NCBI GenBank assembly: GCA_009746045.1
Contig: RPFO01000079.1
Coordinates: 4,176,271-4,240,270 of the forward strand
Reading direction: 5' to 3'
Length of the DNA stretch: 64,000 bases
Origin: Mesostigma viride
Lineage: Eukaryota > Streptophyta > Mesostigmatophyceae > Mesostigmatales > Mesostigmataceae
Part shown: positions 29,194 through 53,280 of the stretch, one piece after another
Numbering within the stretch: position 1 is the first letter of the stretch
How the letters are laid out: every line of letters begins with the position of its first letter
Translations under genes and position numbers: made by a program
The notes under the pieces: model-generated
Told to the model about the DNA's origin: nothing
Database searches by the model: none
What the model saw: only the letters and a program-made list of their open reading frames with translations

Positions 29194-29665
29194 AGTTAGT
29201 CTCCATGCTTTGCTGTAGACTAAGTCTCAAAGGCATTGTGAATACAACGTATGAATAAGCCTTGTAAACCCACGTTGGTATGTGAATATAAATACCACGT
29301 GGGCTATGCAGATAGGGATGCTAGTCGAGTCGCATACGTTTCCCTAGATAGGTACTTTGGGTACTGAGGTACGTGACAGATGTCAGTACCCAGTATACGT
29401 AGTGTCCTGTCATTGGACGGTACTAGAGTATCCTAGATAGGGACCGTACTGCAGCGTGCATTGATTTGTGATCGCACGATGCAGTGACTAGGCAGCTACC
29501 TGTCATCGTGCGGCCTCGGGCCAACGGTCTGCACCCAACGGTCACTGGCGGCGCAGCCGGTGAGAGGAACGTTGATAAAGGGTAAACCTATTTTCTAATG
29601 AACCAAGCAATTCATTGCTCACAGCTTCAGTGTTCTCAAGCAATATATCCCACCGCATTCTAACT
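29194..29665 (+). repeat. LTR 1 of C dimer
   Basis: 472 bp, AGTTAG...CTAACT, a perfect 6-bp inverted repeat and not TG...CA. TTAGTCT and AGACTAA near the 5' end can form a hairpin. Only 18 bases separate its end from the gag ATG. Confidence 0.95.
29287..29294 (+). promoter_or_regulatory. TATA box in C LTR 1
   Basis: TATAAATA, followed closely by CCACGTGG, an E-box-like palindrome. The same arrangement occurs in LTR 2 and LTR 3. Confidence 0.55.
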
Positions 29666-29683
29666 TGAATTTTATTTGCTACC

Positions 29684-32311
29684 ATGGCTATCACGAACAA
29701 GAATGTCGCTAAGAAGCTTACCTACAACGAGGATGATGATGGGCAGGATCGGCGGATGCCCAGAGACAACAACAAGAAGCCGGCTGGCGATGCGGCCATT
29801 TCCAAGAAAAAGAAAAAGAACAAAAAGACTCACAATGGTTGCCAGGACGAGGGGACGGCGGCTGCAAAGCCGACCGACCTACCCCCCTCCCCTGCGAGGC
29901 CGGAGGCCGAGACGGCTCCCCCCGGGGAGACCGGCTTACCCTCGACTCCGGCGGCCGCCCCAGCCGCAACCACGGCTGGCGCGGCCATGGCTGCGGAGAC
30001 CTCGGTGGTAAACCCCACTGAGGCTCCACAGTCCGGCCCCACGTTGCCATCTCTTCGGGAGCGTATGCCCCGTCAGACGGCCTCGGTGGCACCGGACGGG
30101 ACGATTACCTTTCGTCCCGCCACATCAAACCTTAATGTCCCTTTCGCCCAGGGACATAACCACATTGAGCTAACGTTTGGGCGACCCTCTGCGTCCCTTC
30201 TTCGCAAGAAGAAGGACATGGAGAGTATTAAACTCGCACGGGTGGTGCGAAAACCTGTGGAACCCATCGCCGGACAACCAATGTCCGACGATGAGGTATC
30301 CGACACTGCCAGTCTCCCCGATGGGGAGACTGAGATCAATCTTACCCCAGCGCTCCTGGCGGTCGAGCAGGCCGCGCTGGTGGCAAATGAAGAACGCCGA
30401 GCGCGGCAGCGGGACCGAGAGGTCCGCCGAGAGGCGGCTTTTCGGCTCGCCGCTAAGCGGCAAGAATATGAAGAGGAAGCCGCCCGTCGCCTGGCTACCC
30501 ACCAGGCGATGGCGGACGCGTACCGCGAGGCCACCCAGCGGTTACGTGACCTCTTAAAAAATGCTGACTATCCCATGGACTATGCGGACAGTCAAGACCT
30601 GGCCGAGCTTGCTCGGTCAGCACACTTTAAAACCATGTCCTCCATCACCCAAGCCAGGGTCACGGAGGCCATCTTGGCCAAACATGGGGTGGTAGCTGAA
30701 GAAGCCCCCCCGCTGGAAACCACCAGCAAGAAACCCTCTCCCCCCCAACCCCTGCAGTACAAGGAGGGACTGCTGGCCCTGGGCGCGAGGAAGGGCAAAG
30801 AGGCGGACTGTCCAGTCCGGCCTGCTATGATCATGGGAGAACCACTCCCTGACATACCCGAGGATGAGGCTGCCTTTCAGGCAGCCCTCCGGGAGCATGA
30901 GGTACGCAAGGAGATGAAGCGTCTCATGCGGGAGGAGGCCAGGAGGAGAGCAGAGGCAGACACCCCTGCCCGCCCCTCCACCGATGGGGCTGGACCCAGT
31001 GGGGTTACCCGGACACCCCCGGGCTCCCCCAGGGCCACCATGACCCCCCCTCCCCCTCCCCCACCACCCCAGGTTCGCCCTGTGGGTTGGGGCCCCCTCC
31101 CAAACCAGGGGGGGTGGCCAGGACCCCAGGAGGCCCTGGGGGGAGGTGCAGAGGTGCCACAGGCACCCAACAGGCCTGCTGAGGCCCCCCCAAGGAGCGG
31201 GGATGTCCTGGAACAGCTCGCCATTCTCCAGGCCCAGCTGGCCTCGTTGCAAGATCAGCAGTTAACAGCTAACCAGCTGCAAACTGTCGAGGGCCTGCGC
31301 GCCCTGATGTCGCGGTATGAGCGGGGGACCATCAACCTGGACCCCACCCGCCTGCAACAAGCAACCGACAGCTTCTTGAGGGCCAACCCCCCTCTCACAG
31401 GTGTGTTTAACCCTCATAAAAAGGAATCCAAAATCAATATTGCTGGCTTGCCTGAGGGTCACACTGTTGAACAAGCTAAGCAATTTGTTTTTGCTTTGGA
31501 GTATGGGATGGAAGGTCTTAACCTTAGACATCAGTTTAAGGCTCTCAGGGCCTCCTCCACATTCCATCAATCATCTCCTGCAATCAGAGCATTGATTCAA
31601 ACCTATCAGGAACGTACCCTGACACCTGAAGCAGCCATTGAACAGTGGCCTACCTTTATCACTGATCTGAAACAGCTAGTGCTTACCAATAACCACATGG
31701 AAGCAGTAGAACGTTTCAACTGGCTTGCTGCATATAAGGTGAACAAGAATAACCTCTCTGGGGATGCAAAAACATACAGGGTAATGATTGAGAAAGACCT
31801 TGAGCTTCTCAAGCTCCAACCAAGGTATCTCATCCACACCTGGCTAACAAAAGCTAATTTGCAACCTTCTGTCCTGGCTACCCTGCTTACAGGCCTCAAG
31901 TCCCTCTGGGACAACTTCAGAGCTGCCATGCTCTATATCGAGGAGGCAGTGGACCCCCTGGGTACTGGCAACAACCAGGCCCAGGACCCCAAGGTCCAGG
32001 GTGTCCAAGGCCACAAACGCAAGGGGCAGGCCAGCCAGGGGGGGCACCCAAGACCCACAAGTCCTCCCACCAAGGGGGCAGTGGCTCTCAGGGGCGTGGC
32101 AACACGTGGCACCGTGTGCCCCTGCATGGCAACCCCAACAACAACAACAACAACAACAACAACAGGTCCCAGCAGGGCAACAATAACAACAGGTCCCAAC
32201 AGGGCCAAAACAACAACAACAACAGGTCCCAGCAGGGCCAGAACCGGTCCCAGCAGGGAAACAACAACAACAACAACAACAACCAGCCTGGCAACCCTGG
32301 GGGGTCCATAA
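29684..32311 (+). CDS. gag: Gag polyprotein of C, copy 1 (intact)
   Basis: An 875-residue ORF from an ATG in the context ACCATGG. Residues 33-50 are Lys-rich. Residues about 225-292 are charged and heptad-like, a probable coiled coil. A long Pro-rich stretch follows, with a run of eight prolines. Residues about 590-770 are helical and resemble a retroelement capsid. The tail turns into poly-Thr because a CAA repeat is read as ACA. In the -1 frame the same repeat codes for poly-Asn and leads into the zinc knuckle and Pol, so this frame itself has no knuckle. The two frames overlap from 31804 to 32311, which suggests -1 frameshifting for Gag-Pol. Copy 2 is frameshifted three times in the same gene. 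Confidence 0.85.
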   Translation: MAITNKNVAKKLTYNEDDDGQDRRMPRDNNKKPAGDAAISKKKKKNKKTHNGCQDEGTAAAKPTDLPPSPARPEAETAPPGETGLPSTPAAAPAATTAGAAMAAETSVVNPTEAPQSGPTLPSLRERMPRQTASVAPDGTITFRPATSNLNVPFAQGHNHIELTFGRPSASLLRKKKDMESIKLARVVRKPVEPIAGQPMSDDEVSDTASLPDGETEINLTPALLAVEQAALVANEERRARQRDREVRREAAFRLAAKRQEYEEEAARRLATHQAMADAYREATQRLRDLLKNADYPMDYADSQDLAELARSAHFKTMSSITQARVTEAILAKHGVVAEEAPPLETTSKKPSPPQPLQYKEGLLALGARKGKEADCPVRPAMIMGEPLPDIPEDEAAFQAALREHEVRKEMKRLMREEARRRAEADTPARPSTDGAGPSGVTRTPPGSPRATMTPPPPPPPPQVRPVGWGPLPNQGGWPGPQEALGGGAEVPQAPNRPAEAPPRSGDVLEQLAILQAQLASLQDQQLTANQLQTVEGLRALMSRYERGTINLDPTRLQQATDSFLRANPPLTGVFNPHKKESKINIAGLPEGHTVEQAKQFVFALEYGMEGLNLRHQFKALRASSTFHQSSPAIRALIQTYQERTLTPEAAIEQWPTFITDLKQLVLTNNHMEAVERFNWLAAYKVNKNNLSGDAKTYRVMIEKDLELLKLQPRYLIHTWLTKANLQPSVLATLLTGLKSLWDNFRAAMLYIEEAVDPLGTGNNQAQDPKVQGVQGHKRKGQASQGGHPRPTSPPTKGAVALRGVATRGTVCPCMATPTTTTTTTTTGPSRATITTGPNRAKTTTTTGPSRARTGPSRETTTTTTTTSLATLGGP
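32038..32044 (+). promoter_or_regulatory. Candidate -1 frameshift site between gag and pol of C1
   Basis: Seven G in a row positioned as G-GGG-GGG relative to the gag frame, inside the gag/pol overlap. After a -1 shift the pol frame is open to 33747. Other slip sites in the CAA tract cannot be excluded. Confidence 0.35.
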
Positions 32312-33747
32312 GGTGCCTGAGGTGCTTCCAACGAGGGCACGCACGGCACAACTGCCCCAACAACGACTCCCTGGCCAACGGGGTGGATCTCTGCCCGGGC
32401 TGCTGGCACGCACGTCATCCCCTGGGGCCTCCAGGCAGCCGTTGCAACAGGCCTCGCTACCCAAATCAATGTGAGTTCACTCACCTTATGTACTCTGAGG
32501 ATGATGATCTCATTACCATTGGGGATGGCAACCAGGGCATAATTGATTTTGAGGCAGCAACCTTACTGTCCTCCCAACACCCTGTTCTGGAACCTTACAT
32601 AAAAGCACTAACCCCTACTGTTGACAACTCCATAGATATCAAGGAGCTTGCTCATCAGCTGCACCTAGCCATGGGTCATGAAACAGTGGCTGAGGAACTG
32701 GCCAGACGGCTGGGGGGTAGTAGCATGGGAAAACAACTCAGGAATGCAGTAAAACTGGCTAGACAACACTGTCAAGAATGTCAGTTCAATAGCCCCAAAC
32801 CTCAAAAATGGCATACTGCAACTCCTTCCACCAATAGGGGCATGATAGTGGGGGATGTGATGCACATCAACAAAGATGTCCAACCCTACCTGATCCTAAA
32901 AGACTCATGGTCCAGGTTCACAGTAATGGAACCCCTACCTGGCATGTCTGCAGGGCAGCTACGTGTTGCACTCATGATTGCTTTACCCAGATTCTACCCA
33001 GTTGACAGAATTTTGCTTGATCAACAATTTTCTTGTCTGACTGACCTGGAAGGGTGTGAAGCAATAGAGATTGCTGGGCTGGAAGATCATGAGGGTCAGG
33101 GGGTCATTGAAAGAACCATCAGATCTGTCAAAACCCTACTAGCCAAAAATCCTTCCAAGGATGCTACTTCAGGGGTCTATTGTGACAGGGCACTCTGGTG
33201 TCATGAAATGTGCACAACCCTAAACATGAGACCTGTCTTGCATGCCACGTGGGGTGAAGTAATCCCAGCAGGCCTGCAGGCAGGTGTATATCCCCCAGAG
33301 GTGATAGCACTGTACAACACTGCACGTGCACAAACCTCAGCAAAACTGGCAGAAAAAGATAAAACCCATTCCAGGCCAGTATTCCAAAAAGGTGATCAAG
33401 TTCTCTATTACAAGGAAAACAGCTTTGGTAAGGTTGGAACTTGGCTAGGTCCAGTTACCATCCGTGGATTTACCAAAAACAGCAAGACCGTGGAGGTCAA
33501 GCACAATATCAATGGGAAGCGTCACAGGGTGAGCTGTCATAGAATTAAGAAGTATTATTCTCCCATGGCAGACGTGCCTGGGGAAGAGTCTTTAAGCATG
33601 GACTCACTACTTCTATCTGGCAACTCCAGCATGCCCAGCAGTAGCTCTGAGCCACCAATTACTGCTGTTGACAGCACCACAGCACCCTCTGTGAACCTTC
33701 CACCCTCAGTGAAGCCAGGCCCACTTCACAACCTGGGGATTGCTTAA
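32041..33747 (+). pseudogene. Pol of C1, part 1: zinc knuckle and integrase
   Basis: Frame -1 to gag, with no ATG at its beginning. It carries the poly-Asn linker, the CCHC knuckle CLRCFQRGHARHNC, a second Cys/His motif, and integrase with HHCC and the D, D, E residues described for copy 2. A one-base deletion near 33698 (GTGAACCTTCC here, GTGAACACTTCC in copy 2) ends the frame at 33747. Everything up to that point matches copy 2. Confidence 0.85.
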
Positions 33748-33767
33748 CCAGGCACGAGGTAGCTGGG

Positions 33768-35995
33768 TTGGAAGCATTAGCTCAGCCCCAAGGCACCAAA
33801 TTGTCTGCCAACCCTCCCGCTCTGAGGTCAAGATTGGCAGTCGCCTTGCAAGCATTACACAGGTCACATAAGCAACAAGCTGCTGTGGCCGCAGGGTTGG
33901 CAAAAGTCTCAGCTGTGTGCACTAGTCAGGACCCCTGGACCCTGGCAATAGACACTCAGGCACAGGTCAGTGTGATCAGTGCACAAGCCATCCCTGGTCT
34001 TGAGATTGCACCTTCATTTTGGGCACGGGTGCAGGATTTCTCAGGCCAAAGCTCACTGGATGTAGTGGGACAAGTGATGCTCCCTATACTTGGTATTCAG
34101 ACACCCTTCCAGGTGGTGGAGGGGTACTCTGGTAACACCTTGTTGGGGGAACCTTTTGTATCCTATCCTGGGGTGCTTATCTCAGCTAATGAGCTCAGTG
34201 TCACAGGGGTGGGTGCAGTTCCTCTGGACCACTTTAAAATCCCTCTCTCCAGTATTGTCCCTGGTATGGATGCTGTCATCAAGGCAGTCAACACTCAGTA
34301 TGCACCAGGGGAGATCCCTGATCTGGACAAGTTAGTGCACAGCCAGTTCCTCCATCCCTCAGCCTTTGGGCTGGGTAAGTGGGACATAGCCATGCACTCA
34401 CCCCACCAAATCTCCCACGTCATACAAGAATGCAAAACACAAAAAGGGTTTACCAAGTGGCTGATGGCCATTGTCCACCAAGCCAGGCAGGAATGGGTCC
34501 TGCCCAACCCCAAAAACCCTCAATACAAACCGCCTGTCACCCCTTCATGGGACGTGCCAGAGGGAGCCAAAAAGCTCAGATTAAAATTTGTTCTCAAACA
34601 AAAACCACAAAAAGTGGGCTCCCCAATCTTCCATGCCAGACCATGTGTCACAGAATTAAAGGGGACCTCCACACTGCCAAAAGGGGAAACATACACACCT
34701 GGGCTGCAACAAACCTCACTCAGGATCATGCTCTCCCTCTTCCTCCACAACCTCAATGCAGGCCAAGACTATGTCTGCAAAGCCACTGATATTAAAAGGG
34801 CCTTCCTCAGGGGGGACCCAGAAAAGGCTGAATCTGTGTGGAAAGGGAAGGTGTACGTGGTAGACACCCCAGCTGTGTGGAAACCTTATATTGATGAGCC
34901 CCACCTTATCATCAACATTGGGGTGGAAGGGCTTGTCAGTGCCCCAAAAATTTTCAGAGACTCAGCAGAGGAAGTATTCAAAAAGCTCAAGGCCACGTAT
35001 GATGACCTGGACCCATGCTTTTTTGTTGTACCCACCCCCTCTGGACTGCTGTTCTTTGTGTGGCATGGAGATGACCAACTCATTTGTGGGCCTAGAGCTG
35101 AGGTGGAAACCTTTATTCAGCAGGTCCAGGAATCATATGAGATTGGCAAACAGGTGGAATTGAGCACAACCCCCATCCAGTTCTGTGGCATCATGTTGCA
35201 GCTGCATAGGCAGCCAGATCAGTGGGTCTGCTCTCTCTCCCCTCCTGCAGAATATATCCAAGATTGTCTAGATCTGCTGCAGGACAACTACCTCCCCTTA
35301 CATATGTGTGCCACTGTTCAGGGCAAACTGGGGTGGTGGTCAGCCATCTGTGGGGCTCCCTTAGCTGTCATCAGCAGGGTCACCCATGATGTTCTAGTCA
35401 AGATCAAATGCAGTCACATCAGGAAGTTGGTCAATGACTGTCCCCCCCTCATCCTCCATGGCCTGAATCTGATGGAAGACATCCACATCCAATGTGTCAT
35501 GGACAGCTCCATGGAGAGCAGAACAATCAATCAGATGGGGGCACGGGAATCAGGGCTGTTTTTTCTCACCAACAGGTCAGATTACATGTCCCTCACTTCC
35601 TGGTACAGCAGGCTACACCGCAGAAAACCTGGCAGCAGCAACTCAGCTGAATGTCGTGCTGTGGTGTCTGCTGCATTGCATGCTCGTTCCCTGCAGCACA
35701 TGCTCACCTGGCTACAAACCCAGGCAGGCAGCACATGCAATGTCATCTCACATCTCTATACTGACAGCCAATCTGTGATCAGTTTTCTAACCAAGAAATC
35801 TGTCTCTGCTGCTGTCCACACTGACTGGATTGGGTGATCCTCAAACAGGAGGCCACCTACTTTTCCAGCTGGACTCATGTGGATGATGAGGACAACCCAG
35901 CAGACGCTCTCACGAAGCTGCGGGATGCTGCTGGCCAACAGTACCAGCTCCTCTTTCAGAACATGAACCCCTATGATATCAGAGTCAGTGTTTGA
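33768..35995 (+). pseudogene. Pol of C1, part 2: retropepsin-like domain, RT and RNase H
   Basis: It continues the polyprotein in another frame to 35837, where a second one-base deletion near 35825 (ACTGACTGG against ACTGACCTGG in copy 2) breaks RNase H; the true stop TGA is at 35993-35995. Contains IDTQAQVSVI, LLGEPF, ATDIKRAF, WHGDDQL and MDSSMESR. Identical in plan to copy 2, so inactive only through two single-base losses. Confidence 0.85.
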
Positions 35996-36369
35996 ATAAA
36001 TGACTGGCCATAGCACAGTACACAACCACCACACCCCCTTACCACAGCGATAGCTGCTGGGCGCCATAAAATTCAACACATTCGTTGTGGGGTGTGAGTG
36101 CTGGCTAGGTCAGATTTGTATCCATTTGCAGCTTGAGGACACAAGCTTTGTATCCATTTACTTAATGTGTGCTTCAGTACCTGGCCAAACCAGCCAGCTG
36201 TGTACACCTTATTTAATGTGCAATATAACACCTGGCCAGAACAGCCAGCTGTAACCAACCTGGCTCAACCAGCCATGTCTCTTTTGTACCCCTAATCAAC
36301 TTAAAAACAATAACAATAATGTTGGGGGTGCAGACCTGCATTAAGAAATAAATAATAAAACAATACTGG
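35996..36369 (+). other. 3' untranslated region of C1
   Basis: A/T-rich tail with two imperfect repeats of CCTGGCCAAACCAGCCAGCTG type, ending in TACTGG before LTR 2. No gene. Confidence 0.6.
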
Positions 36370-36841
36370 AGTTAGTCTCCATGCTTTGCTGTAGACTAAG
36401 TCTCAAAGGCATTGTGAATACAACGTATGAATAAGCCTTGTAAACCCACGTTGGTATGTGAATATAAATACCACGTGGGCTATGCAGATAGGGATGCTAG
36501 TCGAGTCGCATACGTTTCCCTAGATAGGTACTTTGGGTACTGAGGTACGTGACAGATGTCAGTACCCAGTATACGTAGTGTCCTGTCATTGGACGGTACT
36601 AGAGTATCCTAGATAGGGACCGTACTGCAGCGTGCATTGATTTGTGATCGCACGATGCAGTGACTAGGCAGCTACCTGTCATCGTGCGGCCTCGGGCCAA
36701 CGGTCTGCACCCAACGGTCACTGGCGGCGCAGCCGGTGAGAGGAACGTTGATAAAGGGTAAACCTATTTTCTAATGAACCAAGCAATTCATTGCTCACAG
36801 CTTCAGTGTTCTCAAGCAATATATCCCACCGCATTCTAACT
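36370..36841 (+). repeat. LTR 2 (shared middle LTR) of C dimer
   Basis: 472 bp, matching LTR 1, with TATAAATA at 36463-36470. It serves as the 3' LTR of body 1 and the 5' LTR of body 2; no target duplication flanks it. Confidence 0.95.
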
Positions 36842-36859
36842 TGAATTTTATTTGCTACC

Positions 36860-39481
36860 ATGGCTATCACGAACAAGAATGTCGCTAAGAAGCTTACCTA
36901 CAACGAGGATGATGATGGGCAGGATCGGCGGATGCCCAGAGACAACAACAAGAAGCCGGCTGGCGATGCGGCCATTTCCAAGAAAAAGAAAAAGAACAAA
37001 AAGACTCACAATGGTTGCCAGGACGAGGGGACGGCGGCTGCAAAGCCGACCGACCTACCCCCCTCCCCTGCGAGGCCGGAGGCCGAGACGGCTCCCCCCG
37101 GGGAGACCGGCTTACCCTCGACTCCGGCGGCCGCCCCAGCCGCAACCACGGCTGGCGCGGCCATGGCTGCGGAGACCTCGGTGGTAAACCCCACTGAGGC
37201 TCCACAGTCCGGCCCCACGTTGCCATCTCTTCGGGAGCGTATGCCCCGTCAGACGGCCTCGGTGGCACCGGACGGGACGATTACCTTTCGTCCCGCCACA
37301 TCAAACCTTAATGTCCCTTTCGCCCAGGGACATAACCACATTGAGCTAACGTTTGGGCGACCCTCTGCGTCCCTTCTTCGCAAGAAGAAGGACATGGAGA
37401 GTATTAAACTCGCACGGGTGGTGCGAAAACCTGTGGAACCCATCGCCGGACAACCAATGTCCGACGATGAGGTATCCGACACTGCCAGTCTCCCCGATGG
37501 GGAGACTGAGATCAATCTTACCCCAGCGCTCCTGGCGGTCGAGCAGGCCGCGCTGGTGGCAAATGAAGAACGCCGAGCGCGGCAGCGGGACCGAGAGGTC
37601 CGCCGAGAGGCGGCTTTTCGGCTCGCCGCTAAGCGGCAAGAATATGAAGAGGAAGCCGCCCGTCGCCTGGCTACCCACCAGGCGATGGCGGACGCGTACC
37701 GCGAGGCCACCCAGCGGTTACGTGACCTCTTAAAAAATGCTGACTATCCCATGGACTATGCGGACAGTCAAGACCTGGCCGAGCTTGCTCGGTCAGCACA
37801 CTTTAAAACCATGTCCTCCATCACCCAAGCCAGGGTCACGGAGGCCATCTTGGCCAAACATGGGGTGGTAGCTGAAGAAGCCCCCCCGCTGGAAACCACC
37901 AGCAAGAAACCCTCTCCCCCCAACCCCTGCAGTACAAGGAGGGACTGCTGGCCCTGGGTGCGAGGAAGGGCAAAGAGGCGGACTGTCCAGTCCGGCCTGC
38001 TATGATCATGGGAGACCACTCCCTGACATACCCGAGGATGAGGCTGCCTTTCAGGCAGCCCTCCGGGAGCATGAGGTACGCAAGGAGATGAAGCGTCTCA
38101 TGCGGGAGGAGGCCAGGAGGAGAGCAGAGGCAGACACCCCTGCCCGCCCCTCCACCGATGGGGCTGGACCCAGTGGGGTTACCCGGACACCCCCGGGCTC
38201 CCCCAGGGCCACCATGACCCCCCCTCCCCCTCCCCCACCACCCCAGGTTCGCCCTGTGGGTTGGGGCCCCCTCCCAAACCAGGGGGGTGGCCAGGACCCC
38301 AGGAGGCCCTGGGGGGAGGTGCAGAGGTGCCACAGGCACCCAACAGGCCTGCTGAGGCCCCCCCAAGGAGCGGGGATGTCCTGGAACAGCTCGCCATTCT
38401 CCAGGCCCAGCTGGCCTCGTTGCAAGATCAGCAGTTAACAGCTAACCAGCTGCAAACTGTCGAGGGCCTGCGCGCCCTGATGTCGCGGTATGAGCGGGGG
38501 ACCATCAACCTGGACCCCACCCGCCTGCAACAAGCAACCGACAGCTTCTTGAGGGCCAACCCCCCTCTCACAGGTGTGTTTAACCCTCATAAAAAGGAAT
38601 CCAAAATCAATATTGCTGGCTTGCCTGAGGGTCACACTGTTGAACAAGCTAAGCAATTTGTTTTTGCTTTGGAGTATGGGATGGAAGGTCTTAACCTTAG
38701 ACATCAGTTTAAGGCTCTCAGGGCCTCCTCCACATTCCATCAATCATCTCCTGCAATCAGAGCATTGATTCAAACCTATCAGGAACGTACCCTGACACCT
38801 GAAGCAGCCATTGAACAGTGGCCTACCTTTATCACTGATCTGAAACAGCTAGTGCTTACCAATAACCACATGGAAGCAGTAGAACGTTTCAACTGGCTTG
38901 CTGCATATAAGGTGAACAAGAATAACCTCTCTGGGGATGCAAAAACATACAGGGTAATGATTGAGAAAGACCTTGAGCTTCTCAAGCTCCAACCAAGGTA
39001 TCTCATCCACACCTGGCTAACAAAAGCTAATTTGCAACCTTCTGTCCTGGCTACCCTGCTTACAGGCCTCAAGTCCCTCTGGGACAACTTCAGAGCTGCC
39101 ATGCTCTATATCGAGGAGGCAGTGGACCCCCTGGGTACTGGCAACAACCAGGCCCAGGACCCCAAGGTCCAGGGTGTCCAAGGCCACAAACGCAAGGGGC
39201 AGGCCAGCCAGGGGGGGCACCCAAGACCCACAAGTCCTCCCACCAAGGGGGCAGTGGCTCTCAGGGGCGTGGCAACACGTGGCACCGTGTGCCCCTGCAT
39301 GGCAACCCCAACAACAACAACAACAACAACAACAACAGGTCCCAGCAGGGCAACAATAACAACAGGTCCCAACAGGGCCAAAACAACAACAACAACAGGT
39401 CCCAGCAGGGCCAGAACCGGTCCCAGCAGGGAAACAACAACAACAACAACAACCAGCCTGGCAACCCTGGGGGGTCCATAA
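36860..39481 (+). pseudogene. Gag of C, copy 2 (three frameshifts)
   Basis: Same gene as 29684-32311 but open only to 38005, then again from about 38261. Differences from copy 1 are single-base losses in short runs: C7 to C6 near 37915, AACC to ACC near 38013, and G7 to G6 near 38284. The capsid-like part remains open but is cut off from the N-terminus. Homopolymer miscalls are a possible alternative to real mutations. Confidence 0.85.
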
Positions 39482-42400
39482 GGTGCCTGAGGTGCTTCCA
39501 ACGAGGGCACGCACGGCACAACTGCCCCAACAACGACTCCCTGGCCAACGGGGTGGATCTCTGCCCGGGCTGCTGGCACGCACGTCATCCCCTGGGGCCT
39601 CCAGGCAGCCGTTGCAACAGGCCTCGCTACCCAAATCAATGTGAGTTCACTCACCTTATGTACTCTGAGGATGATGATCTCATTACCATTGGGGATGGCA
39701 ACCAGGGCATAATTGATTTTGAGGCAGCAACCTTACTGTCCTCCCAACACCCTGTTCTGGAACCTTACATAAAAGCACTAACCCCTACTGTTGACAACTC
39801 CATAGATATCAAGGAGCTTGCTCATCAGCTGCACCTAGCCATGGGTCATGAAACAGTGGCTGAGGAACTGGCCAGACGGCTGGGGGGTAGTAGCATGGGA
39901 AAACAACTCAGGAATGCAGTAAAACTGGCTAGACAACACTGTCAAGAATGTCAGTTCAATAGCCCCAAACCTCAAAAATGGCATACTGCAACTCCTTCCA
40001 CCAATAGGGGCATGATAGTGGGGGATGTGATGCACATCAACAAAGATGTCCAACCCTACCTGATCCTAAAAGACTCATGGTCCAGGTTCACAGTAATGGA
40101 ACCCCTACCTGGCATGTCTGCAGGGCAGCTACGTGTTGCACTCATGATTGCTTTACCCAGATTCTACCCAGTTGACAGAATTTTGCTTGATCAACAATTT
40201 TCTTGTCTGACTGACCTGGAAGGGTGTGAAGCAATAGAGATTGCTGGGCTGGAAGATCATGAGGGTCAGGGGGTCATTGAAAGAACCATCAGATCTGTCA
40301 AAACCCTACTAGCCAAAAATCCTTCCAAGGATGCTACTTCAGGGGTCTATTGTGACAGGGCACTCTGGTGTCATGAAATGTGCACAACCCTAAACATGAG
40401 ACCTGTCTTGCATGCCACGTGGGGTGAAGTAATCCCAGCAGGCCTGCAGGCAGGTGTATATCCCCCAGAGGTGATAGCACTGTACAACACTGCACGTGCA
40501 CAAACCTCAGCAAAACTGGCAGAAAAAGATAAAACCCATTCCAGGCCAGTATTCCAAAAAGGTGATCAAGTTCTCTATTACAAGGAAAACAGCTTTGGTA
40601 AGGTTGGAACTTGGCTAGGTCCAGTTACCATCCGTGGATTTACCAAAAACAGCAAGACCGTGGAGGTCAAGCACAATATCAATGGGAAGCGTCACAGGGT
40701 GAGCTGTCATAGAATTAAGAAGTATTATTCTCCCATGGCAGACGTGCCTGGGGAAGAGTCTTTAAGCATGGACTCACTACTTCTATCTGGCAACTCCAGC
40801 ATGCCCAGCAGTAGCTCTGAGCCACCAATTACTGCTGTTGACAGCACCACAGCACCCTCTGTGAACACTTCCACCCTCAGTGAAGCCAGGCCCACTTCAC
40901 AACCTGGGGATTGCTTAACCAGGCACGAGGTAGCTGGGTTGGAAGCATTAGCTCAGCCCCAAGGCACCAAATTGTCTGCCAACCCTCCCGCTCTGAGGTC
41001 AAGATTGGCAGTCGCCTTGCAAGCATTACACAGGTCACATAAGCAACAAGCTGCTGTGGCCGCAGGGTTGGCAAAAGTCTCAGCTGTGTGCACTAGTCAG
41101 GACCCCTGGACCCTGGCAATAGACACTCAGGCACAGGTCAGTGTGATCAGTGCACAAGCCATCCCTGGTCTTGAGATTGCACCTTCATTTTGGGCACGGG
41201 TGCAGGATTTCTCAGGCCAAAGCTCACTGGATGTAGTGGGACAAGTGATGCTCCCTATACTTGGTATTCAGACACCCTTCCAGGTGGTGGAGGGGTACTC
41301 TGGTAACACCTTGTTGGGGGAACCTTTTGTATCCTATCCTGGGGTGCTTATCTCAGCTAATGAGCTCAGTGTCACAGGGGTGGGTGCAGTTCCTCTGGAC
41401 CACTTTAAAATCCCTCTCTCCAGTATTGTCCCTGGTATGGATGCTGTCATCAAGGCAGTCAACACTCAGTATGCACCAGGGGAGATCCCTGATCTGGACA
41501 AGTTAGTGCACAGCCAGTTCCTCCATCCCTCAGCCTTTGGGCTGGGTAAGTGGGACATAGCCATGCACTCACCCCACCAAATCTCCCACGTCATACAAGA
41601 ATGCAAAACACAAAAAGGGTTTACCAAGTGGCTGATGGCCATTGTCCACCAAGCCAGGCAGGAATGGGTCCTGCCCAACCCCAAAAACCCTCAATACAAA
41701 CCGCCTGTCACCCCTTCATGGGACGTGCCAGAGGGAGCCAAAAAGCTCAGATTAAAATTTGTTCTCAAACAAAAACCACAAAAAGTGGGCTCCCCAATCT
41801 TCCATGCCAGACCATGTGTCACAGAATTAAAGGGGACCTCCACACTGCCAAAAGGGGAAACATACACACCTGGGCTGCAACAAACCTCACTCAGGATCAT
41901 GCTCTCCCTCTTCCTCCACAACCTCAATGCAGGCCAAGACTATGTCTGCAAAGCCACTGATATTAAAAGGGCCTTCCTCAGGGGGGACCCAGAAAAGGCT
42001 GAATCTGTGTGGAAAGGGAAGGTGTACGTGGTAGACACCCCAGCTGTGTGGAAACCTTATATTGATGAGCCCCACCTTATCATCAACATTGGGGTGGAAG
42101 GGCTTGTCAGTGCCCCAAAAATTTTCAGAGACTCAGCAGAGGAAGTATTCAAAAAGCTCAAGGCCACGTATGATGACCTGGACCCATGCTTTTTTGTTGT
42201 ACCCACCCCCTCTGGACTGCTGTTCTTTGTGTGGCATGGAGATGACCAACTCATTTGTGGGCCTAGAGCTGAGGTGGAAACCTTTATTCAGCAGGTCCAG
42301 GAATCATATGAGATTGGCAAACAGGTGGAATTGAGCACAACCCCCATCCAGTTCTGTGGCATCATGTTGCAGCTGCATAGGCAGCCAGATCAGTGGGTCT

Positions 42401-43167
42401 GCTCTCTCTCCCCTCCTGCAGAATATATCCAAGATTGTCTAGATCTGCTGCAGGACAACTACCTCCCCTTACATATGTGTGCCACTGTTCAGGGCAAACT
42501 GGGGTGGTGGTCAGCCATCTGTGGGGCTCCCTTAGCTGTCATCAGCAGGGTCACCCATGATGTTCTAGTCAAGATCAAATGCAGTCACATCAGGAAGTTG
42601 GTCAATGACTGTCCCCCCCTCATCCTCCATGGCCTGAATCTGATGGAAGACATCCACATCCAATGTGTCATGGACAGCTCCATGGAGAGCAGAACAATCA
42701 ATCAAATGGGGGCACGGGAATCAGGGCTGTTTTTTCTCACCAACAGGTCAGATTACATGTCCCTCACTTCCTGGTACAGCAGGCTACACCGCAGAAAACC
42801 TGGCAGCAGCAACTCAGCTGAATGTCGTGCTGTGGTGTCTGCTGCATTGCATGCTCGTTCCCTGCAGCACATGCTCACCTGGCTACAAACCCAGGCAGGC
42901 AGCACATGCAATGTTATCTCACATCTCTACACTGACAGCTTTTCTGTGATCAGTTTTCTAACCAAGAAATCTGTTTCTGCTGCTGTCCACACTGACCTGG
43001 ATTGGGTGATCCTCAAACAGGAGGCAACCTACTTTTCCAGCTGGACTCATGTGGATGATGAGGACAACCCAGCAGACGCTCTAACGAAGCTGCGGGATGC
43101 TGCTGGCCAACAGTACCAGCTCCTCTTTCAGAACATGAACCCCTATGATATCAGAGTCAGTGTTTGA
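39289..43167 (+). CDS. pol: Pol polyprotein of C, copy 2 (intact): zinc knuckle, INT, PR-like, RT, RNase H
   Basis: Open for 1292 codons from a GTG; the frame opens further upstream (about 38977), and with no ATG it is probably reached by -1 frameshifting from gag. Domains: poly-Asn linker 8-55; CCHC knuckle 66-79; second Cys/His motif 92-118; integrase with H182, H187, C218, C221 and catalytic candidates D246, D301, E331; SH3-like integrase tail about 425-480; retropepsin-like domain about 605-690 with D612-T-Q-A and LLGEPF; reverse transcriptase about 830-1040 with D891 and H983-G-D-D; RNase H about 1122-1270 with D1129, E1178, D1216 and NPADALTK. The Asp-Glu spacing in integrase is 29 residues. 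The protease-like domain lies after integrase. This is the best-preserved pol of the A/C pair and could in principle complement body 1. Confidence 0.9.
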   Translation: MPLHGNPNNNNNNNNNRSQQGNNNNRSQQGQNNNNNRSQQGQNRSQQGNNNNNNNQPGNPGGSIRCLRCFQRGHARHNCPNNDSLANGVDLCPGCWHARHPLGPPGSRCNRPRYPNQCEFTHLMYSEDDDLITIGDGNQGIIDFEAATLLSSQHPVLEPYIKALTPTVDNSIDIKELAHQLHLAMGHETVAEELARRLGGSSMGKQLRNAVKLARQHCQECQFNSPKPQKWHTATPSTNRGMIVGDVMHINKDVQPYLILKDSWSRFTVMEPLPGMSAGQLRVALMIALPRFYPVDRILLDQQFSCLTDLEGCEAIEIAGLEDHEGQGVIERTIRSVKTLLAKNPSKDATSGVYCDRALWCHEMCTTLNMRPVLHATWGEVIPAGLQAGVYPPEVIALYNTARAQTSAKLAEKDKTHSRPVFQKGDQVLYYKENSFGKVGTWLGPVTIRGFTKNSKTVEVKHNINGKRHRVSCHRIKKYYSPMADVPGEESLSMDSLLLSGNSSMPSSSSEPPITAVDSTTAPSVNTSTLSEARPTSQPGDCLTRHEVAGLEALAQPQGTKLSANPPALRSRLAVALQALHRSHKQQAAVAAGLAKVSAVCTSQDPWTLAIDTQAQVSVISAQAIPGLEIAPSFWARVQDFSGQSSLDVVGQVMLPILGIQTPFQVVEGYSGNTLLGEPFVSYPGVLISANELSVTGVGAVPLDHFKIPLSSIVPGMDAVIKAVNTQYAPGEIPDLDKLVHSQFLHPSAFGLGKWDIAMHSPHQISHVIQECKTQKGFTKWLMAIVHQARQEWVLPNPKNPQYKPPVTPSWDVPEGAKKLRLKFVLKQKPQKVGSPIFHARPCVTELKGTSTLPKGETYTPGLQQTSLRIMLSLFLHNLNAGQDYVCKATDIKRAFLRGDPEKAESVWKGKVYVVDTPAVWKPYIDEPHLIINIGVEGLVSAPKIFRDSAEEVFKKLKATYDDLDPCFFVVPTPSGLLFFVWHGDDQLICGPRAEVETFIQQVQESYEIGKQVELSTTPIQFCGIMLQLHRQPDQWVCSLSPPAEYIQDCLDLLQDNYLPLHMCATVQGKLGWWSAICGAPLAVISRVTHDVLVKIKCSHIRKLVNDCPPLILHGLNLMEDIHIQCVMDSSMESRTINQMGARESGLFFLTNRSDYMSLTSWYSRLHRRKPGSSNSAECRAVVSAALHARSLQHMLTWLQTQAGSTCNVISHLYTDSFSVISFLTKKSVSAAVHTDLDWVILKQEATYFSSWTHVDDEDNPADALTKLRDAAGQQYQLLFQNMNPYDIRVSV

Positions 43168-43541
43168 ATAAATGACTGGCCATAGCACAGTACACAACCA
43201 CCACACCCCCTTACCACAGCGATAGCTGCTGGGCGCCATAAAATTCAACACATTCGTTGTGGGGTGTGAGTGCTGGCTAGGTCAGATTTGTATCCATTTG
43301 CAGCTTGAGGACACAAGCTTTGTATCCATTTACTTAATGTGTGCTTCAGTACCTGGCCAAACCAGCCAGCTGTGTACACCTTATTTAATGTGCAATATAA
43401 CACCTGGCCAGAACAGCCAGCTGTAACCAACCTGGCTCAACCAGCCATGTCTCTTTTGTACCCCTAATCAACTTAAAAACAATAACAATAATGTTGGGGG
43501 TGCAGACCTGCATTAAGAAATAAATAATAAAACAATACTGG
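43168..43541 (+). other. 3' untranslated region of C2
   Basis: Same as the tail of C1; ends AATACTGG before LTR 3. No gene. Confidence 0.6.
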
Positions 43542-44014
43542 AGTTAGTCTCCATGCTTTGCTGTAGACTAAGTCTCAAAGGCATTGTGAATACAACGTAT
43601 GAATAAGCCTTGTAAACCCACGTTGGTATGTGAATATAAATACCACGTGGGCTATGCAGATAGGGATGCTAGTCGAGTCGCATACGTTTCCCTAGATAGG
43701 TACTTTGGGTACTGAGGTACGTGACAGATGTCAGTACCCAGTATACGTAGTGTCCTGTCATTGGACGGTACTAGAGTATCCTAGATAGGGACCGTACTGC
43801 AGCGTGCATTGATTTGTGATCGCACGATGCAGTGACTAGGCAGCTACCTGTCATCGTGCGGCCTCGGGCCAACGGTCTGCACCCAACGGTCACTGGCGGC
43901 GCAGCCGGTGAGAGGAACGTTGATAAAGGGTAAACCTATTTTCTAATAAACCAAGCAATTCATTGCTCACAGCTTACAGTGTTCTCAAGCAATATATCCC
44001 ACCGCATTCTAACT
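43542..44014 (+). repeat. LTR 3 of C dimer
   Basis: 473 bp, with TATAAATA at 43635-43642. It differs from LTR 1 and 2 by at least one inserted base (CTTACAGTG for CTTCAGTG) and CTAATAAACC for CTAATGAACC, the latter creating an AATAAA. Followed by the second TCCCT. Confidence 0.95.
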
Positions 44015-45109: not shown

Positions 45110-45753
45110 AGTTAGCATATTGGTGATGCAATATGCTAAGCATATCATACCTGAAGTGGCCTTTCCAACGCCGTGCTAAACGCCTCATTTGGACAAGGAA
45201 CTTGAGAGTTATCAAGTCCCGAAGTAATGCCGCCGGACGCTACAGCAGTACCAGGACTAAGGACACGTGAGGGACAGGGCACGTGGCAGTGTTGGGTGAA
45301 CCATCACACGTTACGTGTCACAGGACCGACTGTCACTAGGAGGTACTGTGGTCAATATTGGTTGATGGTACCAAGAATGTCACAGGACTTCAGGACTGGC
45401 AGTCCTGCAGGCCTGGGATGGACGGGTACTTGTCATGACGGATAAATCCAGAGCGTTACTGTCATTCATGGAAGGACAGACGTCCTGGATTGATGCAACC
45501 AAGGAAATTGACAGTGGCGGACCTGCCAAGGCGTGCAAGGCCTGGCAGCAATGGTGAGACCTAGAAAGGCTCGGACACAGCAGTGGCCAAGCGTCTTTTC
45601 CCAACACCGTCCGTGGGTACTGCCGCCTCAGGCTAGTGACCACAGGGTAGTGAGGCAACTGTGGTAAAGGTTAAAAGCCGCTGGTTGAAACCATGGCTCC
45701 ATTCATCACATCTTGGGAAGACCAGAAACTCACTGATCCGCGTTCATCTAAAT
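45110..45753 (+). repeat. 5' LTR of B2
   Basis: 644 bp, AGTTAG...CTAAAT, with the terminal hairpin AGCATATTG/CAATATGCT. CGTATTACAGTC follows; no TGG primer-binding site. Confidence 0.95.
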
Positions 45754-45777
45754 CGTATTACAGTCTGGTCGACGGAT

Positions 45778-46743
45778 ATGTCGAATTCGGACTCTGAAGC
45801 TAGGACAAACACCTTTGCGCGTGCAGCAACGGTAGCGGCGTCCAGTCCAGTACCCGCAGGAGGGCACGAGGACTCGGAGGAAGTGCGCCGAAATATTCGT
45901 GCGGTGTCGGCACCGGGCGAGTACGTCCGAGGAGCAGCCGAGCAGCTGCTGAGATTTCGCGAGGACCTCGCGGAAATCATCAGAAGGCTGCCAGCGTCTT
46001 GGCGGGCTGGCCACACAAACGCATTCGCGTTTGAGCAGGTGGTCACTCTGCTTTTGCAGATAATTGCCATAAGCCTCGGGGGTGCCCGAGAGATAAACGA
46101 CCTTGTCGCCAATCTCCGCCTTGGGGACGACTACACCGGCGTGCCAAACGTGGTGCAGGTCGCCCGGGACAGGCGGGAGGCCATCGTTCGTGGCAGTACG
46201 CAGGCGTTGGTGGCAGAGTGCCAGAATCTGGCGCACTCTGTCTTAGAGTTGACCAGAGGCGCTGCTGATCGTGTCTTCATTACTCTTAATCCCTTCTCCA
46301 TCTACACTAGTCGGGATACTCCACATTCTCGCCGAGAGTTAAACCAGCTAAGTTTGACTGTCGACGTGGTTGGCGGTCGAGAGGTCTCAGCCGACGACGC
46401 CTTCTACGACTTCGTAGATCAGCCAGCAGGGGCGGTAGTACAGCCGGCCCAGAGGCGTCACGAGGGCGACGGCTCTCAGGAGGGCCGTGAGCAGGCGCAG
46501 CGGGACGAGCTTAATCGCTACCACATTGACGACAACGTTGGTTTAGGTGAGGCTCATTTGCTGAGGTGGGGGCGTTCTCGCTGGATACGTGATTACGCGT
46601 ATGGTTTGAGGCTTCCGGTGGTTATTAGGCCTGTGCCTACTCACGACGACCAGGGGCAGCCATTGAATCCGGTGGAGGGACCGTTCCACGAGCCAGCACC
46701 TGCACCGGTTGCAGGAGAAGCTTCGTCTGAAAACGAGGCTTGA
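45778..46743 (+). CDS. ORF1 of B2, unknown function, upstream of gag
   Basis: 321 residues from the first ATG after the LTR (MSNSDSEARTN); the frame is also open into the LTR but without a better ATG. I recognise no domain. Residues about 30-170 look helical (RGAAEQLLRFREDLAEIIRR, then EQVVTLLLQIIAISLGG, a hydrophobic stretch too short and polar-flanked to call a membrane segment). The C-terminus is acidic. Element D has a protein of similar size in the same position, with little obvious identity. It could be an extra structural or RNA-binding protein, or an N-terminal part of Gag that became separate, since Gag of C is a single long protein. Intact here, broken in B1. Confidence 0.65.
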   Translation: MSNSDSEARTNTFARAATVAASSPVPAGGHEDSEEVRRNIRAVSAPGEYVRGAAEQLLRFREDLAEIIRRLPASWRAGHTNAFAFEQVVTLLLQIIAISLGGAREINDLVANLRLGDDYTGVPNVVQVARDRREAIVRGSTQALVAECQNLAHSVLELTRGAADRVFITLNPFSIYTSRDTPHSRRELNQLSLTVDVVGGREVSADDAFYDFVDQPAGAVVQPAQRRHEGDGSQEGREQAQRDELNRYHIDDNVGLGEAHLLRWGRSRWIRDYAYGLRLPVVIRPVPTHDDQGQPLNPVEGPFHEPAPAPVAGEASSENEA

Positions 46744-46811
46744 GGGGGTGGAGGATAGGTGGAGAGTTTGCTGTTTTCTTGTTGCAAAGTTGGTCGCAGC
46801 CATTGTATATA

Positions 46812-48134
46812 ATGCCTAGGAGGGCAAGCCGGGGTGCGGCGACATTCGAGGAGCAACGGGAGCGAACGGCAGAGGAGGACATCGCCAGAGAGGAAGGGGA
46901 GGCGATGGAGGAGAGGGGCGTGGAGGCGCCAGCTGGGCAACCTATCCCAGAGATGGACCCCAGAGCCGGGAGAACACACAAGCGGTGGCGTGATGGGCAA
47001 GCTGAGGCGGAGAAAGTCAAGCGTGCCAGGCGACCTACGGAGGCAGTGGTGCTCACAACGCCTGGTGAGGAGGACGCCATCGTCACCCCAGGTGTGCGTG
47101 CTGCAAAGCAAGCTGCTGTTCACGATAGGGTGTCTGGTATGTTGCCCGAGCGTTTGGAGGCTAGGATTGACCCTCCCCAGGCACCACCAGTGCGTGTGGG
47201 GAGTGTGTTGCCTGGCACCCGTCCATTTTCTGATGCTGTGACAGTCATGAATGGGCAGAAAGCGCTCAACCCTCCCTGAAGCAAGACAACCTGGATAAAT
47301 GGCTTGATGACATGAAGCTAGTCGTGGGCTCTGTCGCAGCAGGTGTGGATATTGTCAGGGTGTTTCACTCTTCCACCGCAAACAAGGGGTCGTCTGAAAG
47401 GGTCAATGACATGGCTAGGCATGCTCTGAAAGAGGGGCACACTTGGCTACAGTTCCTAGATGACATCAAGGAGGAGTTTTCTGACAGGGTTCACAATCTC
47501 ACCATGGAAAAGAAGAGAGAATTTGATGAGTTTGAGATCAAGGGTGAGGTGGCTGCTGAGCTGGCCAGGTTTGAGTTGATCGTGGAGGCAGGCAAGAAGC
47601 AGGGCTTCAGTGTGACAGTCAGGGCAGCAGCAGACCACTTCTTGATAAGATGGGCTTGTCAGAGGAAGGTAGGGCTACTGCTAGGCAGCTCTGTGATCTC
47701 ACTGATGGCACCTGGGGGGCTCTGAAGCGTGTGATACTAAACTTCAGGACCCGGGTCCCTACCTGCAAGGGTATCAGTTCTCAGGGAGGGTCAGCGTCTC
47801 AGGCTAGCCAGGGCAAGAACCGTACCCCATCTGGGACACGGTATGGCAGCAGGAGAAGGAAGCAGGCCCAGAAGGAGCAGAACCAGGGTGGTGGAGGGGT
47901 CAGCAGGGGAACCAGAATCAGGGGAACCAGTCTGGCAACCGTAACAGCCATCAGCAGGGTAAGGGTGGTGGCCAGGGGCAGAATAACAATCAGGCCTCAG
48001 GCAACCAGAACAAGCAGGACAGCAAGGCCCCAGGGGGAGGGTCTGGCAAGAGCAAGTGTTTTGCTTGTGGCAAGGAAGGTCACTGGAAGAGGGATTGCCC
48101 AAACAAGAAGAAGGGGCAGTCTGATCAGAAGTGA
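46812..48134 (+). pseudogene. gag: Gag of B2, with three frameshifts shared with B1
   Basis: Starts at an ATG directly after TATATA (MPRRASRGAATF). The frame changes by -1 near 47258, 47640 and 47890; the open segments 46812-47279, 47312-47725, 47650-48138 and the last frame together give a Gag-like order: acidic N-terminus, helical capsid-like middle, Gln/Asn/Gly-rich linker, CCHC knuckle at 48057-48101 (KCFACGKEGHWKRDCP). The last frame ends in TGA at 48132-48134, in frame with Pol. The same shifts in both copies mean that they were present in their common source, and that B was moved with help from another element or that the shifts are tolerated. Confidence 0.75.
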
Positions 48135-48138
48135 CTAG
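48132..48138 (+). promoter_or_regulatory. Gag stop in readthrough context TGACTAG
   Basis: The codon after the knuckle region is TGA followed by CTAG, and the pol frame continues without a break on the other side. UGA followed by CUA(G) is an established leaky-stop context. The same sequence is present in B1 at 15382-15388 on the - strand. Confidence 0.6.
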
Positions 48139-50333
48139 TGAAGCAGTCCCGTGTACATAGTGAGACACCCTGTGGGGACACAGCTTCACATGTAAATAAA
48201 TCTGGGCAGGGTGCCACCTCTGATCAGCACCAGGGGTGTACTGATGTTCTCATTCCACAAGATTGCATGCATGCTGCAGCACAACAATCCCCTCAACTGT
48301 CAACAGGTGGAGGGTCCCCAGACAGGGTTGGCTCTGGGAGCCTAGATGCTCTGCTGGGAGGGTCTGCTGGGTCCTCTGGATCCAAGATGCAGAAGGTGGA
48401 TGTTGCGTCCTCACACGCAGGGCCCGTCCAGGCGTCTTCCCAGGTGCGTAATCTGGCTAGGCAACTGAGCTACACGGATGCTGGACGCAGGCTGCACAAT
48501 ATCTTTGGTCACACAGCCATGGCTGAGATGTTTGGTTGGAAGATTGGAGATGAGCCACTGAGGGAAGCATGCAGGGCTGCAGCTGAGCAATGTGCTTGTA
48601 AGGAGAATGCTGCCAAGAAGCCAAGGTCCCATGCTAGGGAGCCTGCCAGGGAGAAGGGGGACATCCAGGTAGACGTCCAGCATATCAGGGGCTTATACAT
48701 TTTGGTGGCAGTGGACAGATTTAGCAGGTACAGGCTGCTCCAGATTCTGCCAGATATGAAGGGGAATACCCTGCTGCTGGGCTTGCAGACTCTCTTACCA
48801 GGCTTTGGGGTGTACAAGACAGTACAGGCTGATATTCAGTTTGAGTGCCTACTGTCACAGCAGGAGCAACTGCCATGCAAGCTGCTGGTCACGCCCAGGG
48901 AGAGCCATGGACAGCAAGGTGCTGTGGAGAGATCCATCAGGGAGGTCAAGACCGTAGTGCTGGCAGAACCTAAGGTGCCACTGGTAGCATCTGCTTTGGA
49001 GAGGGCAGTGTGGACCAGGCAGGTGGAAGAACAGTTGAACCTCAGAATAAACTACTATTATGACGGGGTGGCTGTCAATCCTGTAGCACTGCAGTTTGGG
49101 ATGCTAGCCCAGGAAGTGGTCCAGGCATGCTTGAGGAAAGCAGACAGGGTGTTTGCTCAGTTGAGACGCAAGGATAGGGGCTGGAATGTGCTGAGGCCTC
49201 AGGTGGGGCTGAAGGTCAGAATGTGGAAGGAGCCATCAATGCAGGGCAAGAGGGGCAAGTGGCAGAACGGGGTGGTGACCTGTGTGGAAGATGCCAATCG
49301 TTCCTGCCTTGTGGCCTTGGAGAGTAATCCCAGGCATGTTTACAGGTTGAGCTGGGCCAACGTCAAGGAACGCAAGCCACATGCAATCTGGCCTGCAGAC
49401 GGGCCTGGACCCCAGTGTTGGCTGGAGGGCCAGGTTAAGGACCAGGTAGTTGATGTGCCTGTCACTGACGTGGGAGGTGGCTATCCCTCTGATGATGATG
49501 AGGTGCAGGAGGCAACTGCATCACCTGTGGTGGAGCCAACGGGGGCTGGGCCTGCACCAGGGTCCAAGAGGCCACTCATGGCAGACATTGTCCGGTCGCT
49601 CATGTTCAACAAGCACAAGGATCCCAAGGTATCTAAGTTGACTGAATGGGGTTCTTGCTGGGCTGCTACCCTAGAAGTGGATACTAACTCAGAGGTGTCT
49701 ATCATCAGGGTGGAGGATGCTCAGGGCCTGAAGGTGAATAAGGCTGGCTGCAGGGCAGTGAGTGACTTTACGGGCACTGTAACAATGAAGATCCTAGGGG
49801 AAGTGACTGTGCCTATCCTGGGTGTCCCCACTGCGTTCTGTGTGGTGGAAGGGTACCAGGGGCCTGCCATTTTGGGCCAGAATTTCTTGTGCATGCCAGG
49901 AGTGACTCTGTCAGCAGATGAGCTTGCACTAGAAGGTCATGGCAGTTTGCCCCTCCAGAGATATCACTACTCCAAGGGTCTAGCTGTGGCAGTCAAGGCT
50001 GTGAAGGGGCAGCAGAGTGTGGGGCCTGAAGGCAAGGAGCCCATTGCTGAGGACTTGTTGATCATCCCAACCACCCTAGATCCACGGGACTTGGGGGTGC
50101 ACAAGTACCAGATTGCTGGTCACAGTCCTATTTCCTGGCACCAGTTGGTAGAGTTGATGCAAAGCCCCAAGATGGCTAAGGCATGGATTCTAGGGTTTGT
50201 CTCCAGTGGGCATGACTGGATAGTGTCTAACTGTGCTGAGCCTGTGGATGAGTTGCCCAGGGAGCATCAGTTGCTAAGGCTCTTGTTTGTGCTCAAGCTG
50301 AAGGAGATAGACGGGTGCAGGTGCCACATGTGA
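48135..50333 (+). pseudogene. pol: Pol of B2, part 1: integrase, retropepsin-like domain, start of RT
   Basis: Opens right after the TGA. Numbering from 48138: zinc site H120, H125, C152, C154 (C-X-C where most integrases have C-X2-C); catalytic candidates D179, D232 and E264, with 31 residues between the last two; integrase tail about 320-410; protease-like domain about 505-600 with D515-T-N-S and ILGQNFL. Translation ends after KEIDGCRCHM because two bases differ in length from B1 near 50313 (GACGGGTGCAGG here, GACGGTGTGCAGG in B1). Confidence 0.87.
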
Positions 50334-52636: not shown

Positions 52637-53280
52637 AGTTAGCATATTGGTGATGCAATATGCTAAGCATATCATACTTGAAGTGGCCTTTCCAACGCCG
52701 TGCTAAACGCCTCATTTGGACAAGGAACTTGAGAGTTATCAAGTCCCGAAGTAATGCCGCCGGACGCTACAGCAGTACCAGGACTAAGGACACGTGAGGG
52801 ACAGGGCACGTGGCAGTGTTGGGTGAACCATCACACGTTACGTGTCACAGGACCGACTGTCACTAGGAGGTACTGTGGTCAATATTGGTTGATGGTACCA
52901 AGAATGTCACAGGACTTCAGGACTGGCAGTCCTGCAGGCCTGGGATGGACGGGTACTTGTCATGACGGATAAATCCAGAGCGTTACTGTCATTCATGGAA
53001 GGACAGACGTCCTGGATTGATGCAACCAAGGAAATTGACAGTGGCGGACCTGCCAAGGCGTGCAAGGCCTGGCAGCAATGGTGAGACCTAGAAAGGCTCG
53101 GACACAGCAGTGGCCAAGCGTCTTTTCCCAACACCGTCCGTGGGTACTGCCGCCTCAGGCTAGTGACCACAGGGTAGTGAGGCAACTGTGGCAAAGGTTA
53201 AAAGCCGCTGGTTGAAACCATGGCTCCATTCATCACATCTTGGGAAGACCAGAAACTCACTGATCCGCGTTCATCTAAAT
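52637..53280 (+). repeat. 3' LTR of B2
   Basis: 644 bp; differs from the 5' LTR at about two sites (ATACTTGAAG for ATACCTGAAG, GTGGCAAAGG for GTGGTAAAGG). Confidence 0.95.

Follow-up and report, generated by a model that had tools for sequence, protein, structure and literature searches.

Probable Ty1/copia-related LTR retrotransposons of Mesostigma viride with integrase upstream of a retropepsin-like domain

Pol domain order is one of the marks that separate the superfamilies of long terminal repeat (LTR) elements, and integrase (INT) lies downstream of protease (PR) in all known copia elements according to the accessible part of a 2009 survey (PMC2774666). A 64-kb stretch of Mesostigma viride DNA, referred to as the window throughout, raises the question of whether this order is fixed. 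The window contains six copies (A, B, B', C1, C2 and D) of four related LTR-element families, for which an earlier note had proposed the order INT, PR, reverse transcriptase (RT) and RNase H (RH). Our analysis indicates that they are probably Ty1/copia-related LTR retrotransposons, with a Pol of the order INT-PR-RT-RH following a Gag that ends in a zinc knuckle.

Domain order of the polyproteins

The C2 element carries a single open frame of 1292 codons on the plus strand (39289-43167), in which INT, a retropepsin-like domain, RT and RH follow one another as the note had described. Upstream, this frame stays open as far as 39031; the open reading frame (ORF) tool merely placed its start at the GTG at 39289. 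The D frame reported as intact at 57758-61348 is indeed unbroken; it lies on the minus strand, a point that had been overlooked. Frame changes interrupt pol in A, B, B' and C1, which were handled as separate pieces. Alignment of all six window copies gave the order Gag(CCHC)–INT–retropepsin-like–RT–RH, confirming the proposal for families A-D, and a fifth family, F, located elsewhere in the genome, displayed the same order in one frame. At the level of sequence, five families genuinely have this order in common.

The HH-CC finger and the D, D, E residues of INT are invariant across the A-D alignment. Comparison of an A-D INT profile with the PDB returned integrases in 57 of the 60 rows among the matches listed, at weak scores (best E 0.0071). 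In Pfam, rve was matched at E 0.004 in A and B, under its cut-off, and was not matched by C2 itself. RVT_2 was matched by B (E 3.5e-7) and C2 (E 1.2e-4), both below the curated bit cut-off; the RTs of D and F gave no RVT_2 match, and none of the pol pieces an RVT_1 match. In all five families the RT box reads HGDD instead of the YVDD of copia elements. RH was assigned from motifs alone, and its NPADALTK-like end is copia-like. Since every Pfam match to the pol domains of these elements fell below the curated cut-off, homology-based annotation is likely to overlook them.

The retropepsin-like domain

Structure prediction of the 121-residue C2 core was performed with AlphaFold2, together with four other families, and gave a predicted local distance difference test score (pLDDT) of 69, with 79–90 over residues 21-80. 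A longer C2 piece of 181 residues, with loose tails and a half-length row, remained unfolded (pLDDT 40) and was not used. Among the matches listed for the core, retropepsins occupied 50 of 50 rows in the Foldseek search of the PDB and again 50 of 50 with VIA-align. In a viral structure library, most of the leading matches were Pol or protease entries of retroviruses or caulimovirids (best E 0.0014); a few unrelated entries appeared further down the list. The fold check that the note had suggested for C2 residues 605-690 therefore came out in its favour, the core resembling retropepsins alone among the matches listed, and the model supports a retropepsin fold, at moderate scores, for the domain between INT and RT.

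A loose retropepsin signature, hhD[TS]x[AS]xx[STC]xh-(45..75)-hLGxx[FLWIM], which was written after the region had been seen, occurred at six places in the six-frame translation of the window, all at the equivalent point of A, B, B', C1, C2 and D. Its expectation in residue-shuffled open stretches was 0.0005 per window (2000 rounds). The motif originally pointed out, DT[QN][AS] followed by ILG/LLGxxF between INT and RT, is indeed present. Pfam gag-asp_proteas was weakly matched in each of the five families (E 0.10–0.23) and not by every piece tried; a domain consensus matched it at E 0.26 with 106 residues and not at all with 179. Neither a PDB sequence search with the PR profile nor an NCBIfam search gave a match, and the sole match of the domain consensus in the PDB was an unrelated isomerase (E ~0.9).

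Nonsynonymous divergence (dN) between A and C was 0.37 in INT and 0.36 in the domain, versus 0.97 in the preceding linker. The B-D comparison gave dN values of 0.57 for the C-terminal part of INT and 0.56 for the domain; the linker, over 43 alignable codons, reached 0.59, and the values for RT and RH were 0.43 and 0.29. Synonymous divergence (dS) was near or beyond saturation in both comparisons. Judged by these values, the retropepsin-like domain evolves at an INT-like pace in both pairs.

Several caveats apply to this interpretation. All Foldseek E-values were above 0.001. The triad position reads DTQ in A, C and F and DTN in B and D, whereas D[ST]G is found in none of the five families; the placement and fold claimed for the domain stood, and the deviating triad had escaped the note. 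A clearly freer linker was seen only in A-C, and the B-D rates contradict the argument from a free linker. Because of the B-D rates, our confidence in the INT-PR-RT-RH interpretation is slightly lowered and that in an inactive domain slightly raised. Such an inactive domain, possible although we do not favour it, would be a retropepsin without catalysis that is kept as a dimerising or folding module beside RT, while a host protease cuts or no cutting takes place. The triad glycine is a hallmark of active retropepsins, and DT[QN] replaces D[ST]G in five of five families. Simple decay is nevertheless disfavoured, as D and T are invariant in the five families, the third triad residue is only Q or N and the constraint equals that on INT; moreover, an active element without a protease would be unusual. 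An active-site loop that was rebuilt and still functions appears somewhat more likely than an inactive domain with cutting by another route. As the triad is DT[QN] and not D[ST]G, proteolysis is put forward as a proposal. Should the enzyme prove active despite the Q or N at the position of the triad glycine, aspartic proteases would have a broader range of active sites.

Gag, frame changes and copies across the genome

Alternatively, these could be ordinary copia elements with an unrecognised protease in Gag and an unrelated domain behind INT, which we regard as very unlikely. In favour of this reading, Pfam detection of proteases in fungal LTR elements is very low, as stated in the accessible part of PMC3248453, the Gag proteins of C and F have no Pfam match, and LDTGA occurs at the pol start of F, some 80 residues ahead of INT, although no retropepsin body accompanies it. 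Against it, motif scans revealed no protease signature between zinc knuckle and INT in A-D, and this gap comprises only about 95 amino acids (aa) in C2, with no retropepsin pattern. A narrow scan of the six frames picked up D[ST]G[AS]-like strings at three sites, each in a frame riddled with stops; as its pattern would overlook strings such as LDTGAV, the plain D[ST]G scan is the broader one. From the 5' LTR to INT, the latter found one string each in C1 and C2 (identical), B, D and F and none in A (partial) or B'. None of these strings, in any copy examined, had [ILVM]LG downstream at the spacing expected of a retropepsin, and the B, C and D strings sit in alternative frames of 61-93 aa. The stretch from RH to the 3' LTR was free of D[ST]G in C2, B' and D. 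Pfam gave no relevant match for the Gag ORFs of C and D or for the ORF upstream in B'; Gag of F carries a zinc knuckle. A true protease in Gag, which the note had named as a counter-argument, was thus not found beyond a few D[ST]G strings lacking a retropepsin body, and the fold match of the region behind INT speaks against it as well.

Gag and pol overlap in C and F, with pol in the -1 frame. A single in-frame TGA separates the zinc knuckle from pol in B', in B (15388, minus strand) and in D (61351, minus strand); in B, as in B', it stands in the context TGA CTA, a known readthrough context. Gag-Pol would accordingly be made from one RNA, either by a -1 shift (C, F) or by TGA readthrough (B, D). 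In the particle, the retropepsin-like domain would pair and cut the precursor on both its sides, which would release INT from the front end of the precursor and RT-RH (or PR-RT-RH) from its rear end. INT would then insert the cDNA with 5-bp duplications.

A second kind of -1 frame change lies in the INT-PR linker of A (1573-1576), C1 (33696-33747) and F (locus L032), and is common to seven of the 30 C loci and nine of the 10 F loci that were fetched. One possible reading is programmed -1 frameshifting at this point, as in-phase heptamers were found in A (GGGAAAA) and F (CCCCCCT and GGGCCCC). Against it, C1 lacks a heptamer, and A and B' also shift by -1 between PR and RT. One-base deletions, real or from the assembly, explain these frame changes equally well, so that either chance deletions or some regulated event may lie behind them.

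The genome was scanned for further copies (439.9 Mb, 2243 contigs); the numbers are lower bounds, as the best candidates were scored. Sixty-one C places were scored among 8414 candidates, all at 100% identity, 28 of them with a frame of at least 1378 aa and 14 with one of 774 aa. Thirty C loci were fetched. Of these, 18 match C2 in one frame, starting at residue 60-67 and reaching 1292; 3 are partial and unbroken; a break at residues 528-540 is common to 7, and the other 2 are interrupted near residue 199. For F, a PR-RT-RH frame of 797 aa, i.e. separated from INT, was found in 65 of 70 scored places and a frame of 1224 aa in one. EukProt protein P0003 of M. viride was the only protein among the scored candidates that matched the PR-RT-RH alignment (E 2e-174), and it matches the genome at 100% in all 70 scored places. 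A dinoflagellate origin, for which spliced-leader motifs were sought in the window and not found, was discarded once M. viride had matched. Many near-identical genomic copies of C and F therefore exist, which suggests a recent spread. Neither the whole C2 polyprotein nor the INT-PR alignment had a protein match at E 0.001 among the best ~8000 candidates, and no relative was detected in phage records, viral contigs (three relative scans and one pattern scan) or prokaryote genome contigs.

Although small indels separate B and B' (99.8% identical) and C1 and A are frame-broken, which points to indels in the assembly or the copies, an order created by misassembly is extremely unlikely, since five families with 28-57% identity to C2 across the aligned parts share it and 18 of 30 fetched C loci match C2 residues 67-1292 in one frame; as an artefact of a single copy, already rejected in the note, the order is refuted by the five families.

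Two observations on family F stand apart. In its integrase (L031 and L041), D replaces the catalytic E as third residue, despite 70 scored near-identical copies. Beside the F element of L041, positions 7689-9481 contain frames that by eye resemble giant-virus genes; the first ~770 bases of L041 are N.

Relation to known elements and content of the window

The elements resemble Ty1/copia in having INT before RT-RH, an RVT_2-type RT, a zinc-knuckle Gag, an NPADALTK-like RH end and 5-bp target duplications, the latter being a Ty1/copia feature. From the duplications of B, B' and the C pair, the position of INT before RT and the RVT_2-type RT, integration looks copia-like. They differ from Ty1/copia in the protease behind INT, in HGDD and DT[QN], and in their LTR ends, which are AGTTAG...CTAACT in C and AGTTAG...CTAAAT in B and B' (the single end seen of D is TTAACT); inspection of the flanks revealed no TG...CA ends in B, B' or C. 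The sequence immediately behind the C or B' LTR does not begin with the TGG of a tRNA primer site, which in Ty1/copia is of the tRNA-Met or half-tRNA type. The elements share PR directly before RT-RH with Ty3/gypsy and retroviruses, but INT stands in front instead of behind and RVT_1 is not matched, so that INT-PR-RT-RH is a circular permutation of the Ty3/gypsy-retrovirus order. The domain itself is similar to retropepsins such as HIV-1 PR and DDI1 in predicted fold, hhDT.A start and ILG end, except that Q or N replaces the triad G. In Petunia vein clearing virus (Caulimoviridae), a pararetrovirus without LTRs, INT precedes gag, whereas here it lies between gag and PR. Gmr1, a Ty3/gypsy element with copia-like order, also has a moved INT, but downstream of PR, as given in the accessible part of PMC2774666.

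A description of the INT-PR-RT-RH order, which the note had named as a possible refutation if it existed for a named clade, was not found in the open-access literature searched; it may exist in Repbase or in subscription papers, most of which lay outside this search. The order is also absent from the five INT positions in the accessible part of the 2009 survey: downstream of pr (all known copia, Gmr-1), downstream of rh, truncated and reversed in REM1, lost, and upstream of gag in Petunia vein clearing virus (PMC2774666). The accessible parts of other sources describe plant copia elements as highly similar in structure (PMC6317226), copia INT as sitting between protease and RT (PMC3248453) and the Pol of new LTR lineages as protease or retropepsin, RT, RH and IN (PMC12440569, PMC11673190). 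The word copia does not occur in the accessible main text of the other M. viride genome paper (PMC7027972).

As the elements lack two features of copia (a PR ahead of INT and TG...CA ends) and one of retropepsins (D[ST]G), they are not classed as standard members of either. They represent a copia-like LTR retrotransposon variant with an order not encountered in the literature searched, and possibly a new lineage. A more far-reaching interpretation, which we consider rather unlikely, is a superfamily-level lineage at or below the Ty1/copia base, with a working DT[QN] protease, AG...CT-type ends, HGDD and an order linking those of Ty3 and copia; being a circular permutation of the Ty3 order PR-RT-RH-INT and one PR/INT swap from copia, it would connect both. 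An exception in five families of an early-branching streptophyte shows that the order is not fixed and provides a path from the Ty3 to the Ty1 arrangement, or the reverse, that can be tested.

Element limits were taken from a self-blast of the window and inspection of the flanks (Table 1).

Table 1. Coordinates of the elements and of their domains and signatures (window positions, except for family F).
Feature	Position	Strand	Remarks
C2 pol frame	39031..43167	+	unbroken
C2 CCHC zinc knuckle	39472..39531	+	PF13917 E 0.011, under curated cut-off
C2 integrase (limits approximate)	39808..40728	+	HH-CC finger, D, D, E, C-terminal part; invariant columns
C2 retropepsin-like domain, residues 605-690	41101..41358	+	IDTQA ... 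LLGEPF
C2 reverse transcriptase, copia type	41722..42321	+	box WHGDD; PF07727 RVT_2 E 1.2e-4
C2 RNase H-like region (limits approximate)	42661..43113	+	motifs DSSM, AECRA, TDS, NPADALTKL
D pol frame	57758..61348	-	unbroken; begins directly after in-frame TGA at 61351
A signature	1987..2202	+	PF13975 E 0.16 on 1846-2688
B signature	13635..13850	-	DTNS ... ILGQNF; PF13975 E 0.13
C1 signature	33942..34157	+	motif scan
B' signature	49671..49886	+	same frame as integrase
D signature	59546..59761	-	DTNA ... ILGQNF; PF13975 E 0.14
C1 Gag ORF, 875 aa	29684..32311	+	no Pfam match
B' in-frame TGA between Gag zinc knuckle and pol	48132..48134	+	context TGA CTA
Element A	1 to ~3950	+	left-truncated; pol spread over three frames
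Element B	10240..18407	-	LTRs ~650 bp; target duplication ATAAC
Element B'	45110..53280	+	target duplication ATGAC
C1-C2 tandem pair	29194..44014	+	common middle LTR from 36370; outer LTRs from 29194 and 43542; target duplication TCCCT
Element D	56314..64000	-	3' LTR from 56314; 5' LTR extends past window
Family F element L041 (contig C1668)	LTRs 1217-1559, 7031-7374; pol 2979-6650		one frame; INT, DTQAS...LLGEPF, RT, RH

A gag-only LTR element, E, is present in two copies (21764-24597 and 53370-56203) with TGTCA/TGACA-type ends, a TGGTATC primer site and a Gag of copia type, which matches PF14223 at E 1.2e-6 and scores above the cut-off of that family. It is likely a non-autonomous passenger of some other copia element, and its TG...CA-type ends, primer site and Gag indicate that ordinary copia machinery is probably present in the genome too. 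LTR elements are the largest repeat class (27.9%) of the published 441.8-Mb M. viride assembly, as given in the accessible part of its description (PMC6947507). Beside the LTR elements, self-comparison showed the window to contain arrays of one 40-bp minisatellite at 5745-10161 (110 copies), 18884-20653 (44 copies) and 25439-27979 (63 copies), which display a strong A/C strand bias and long chance ORFs on both strands.

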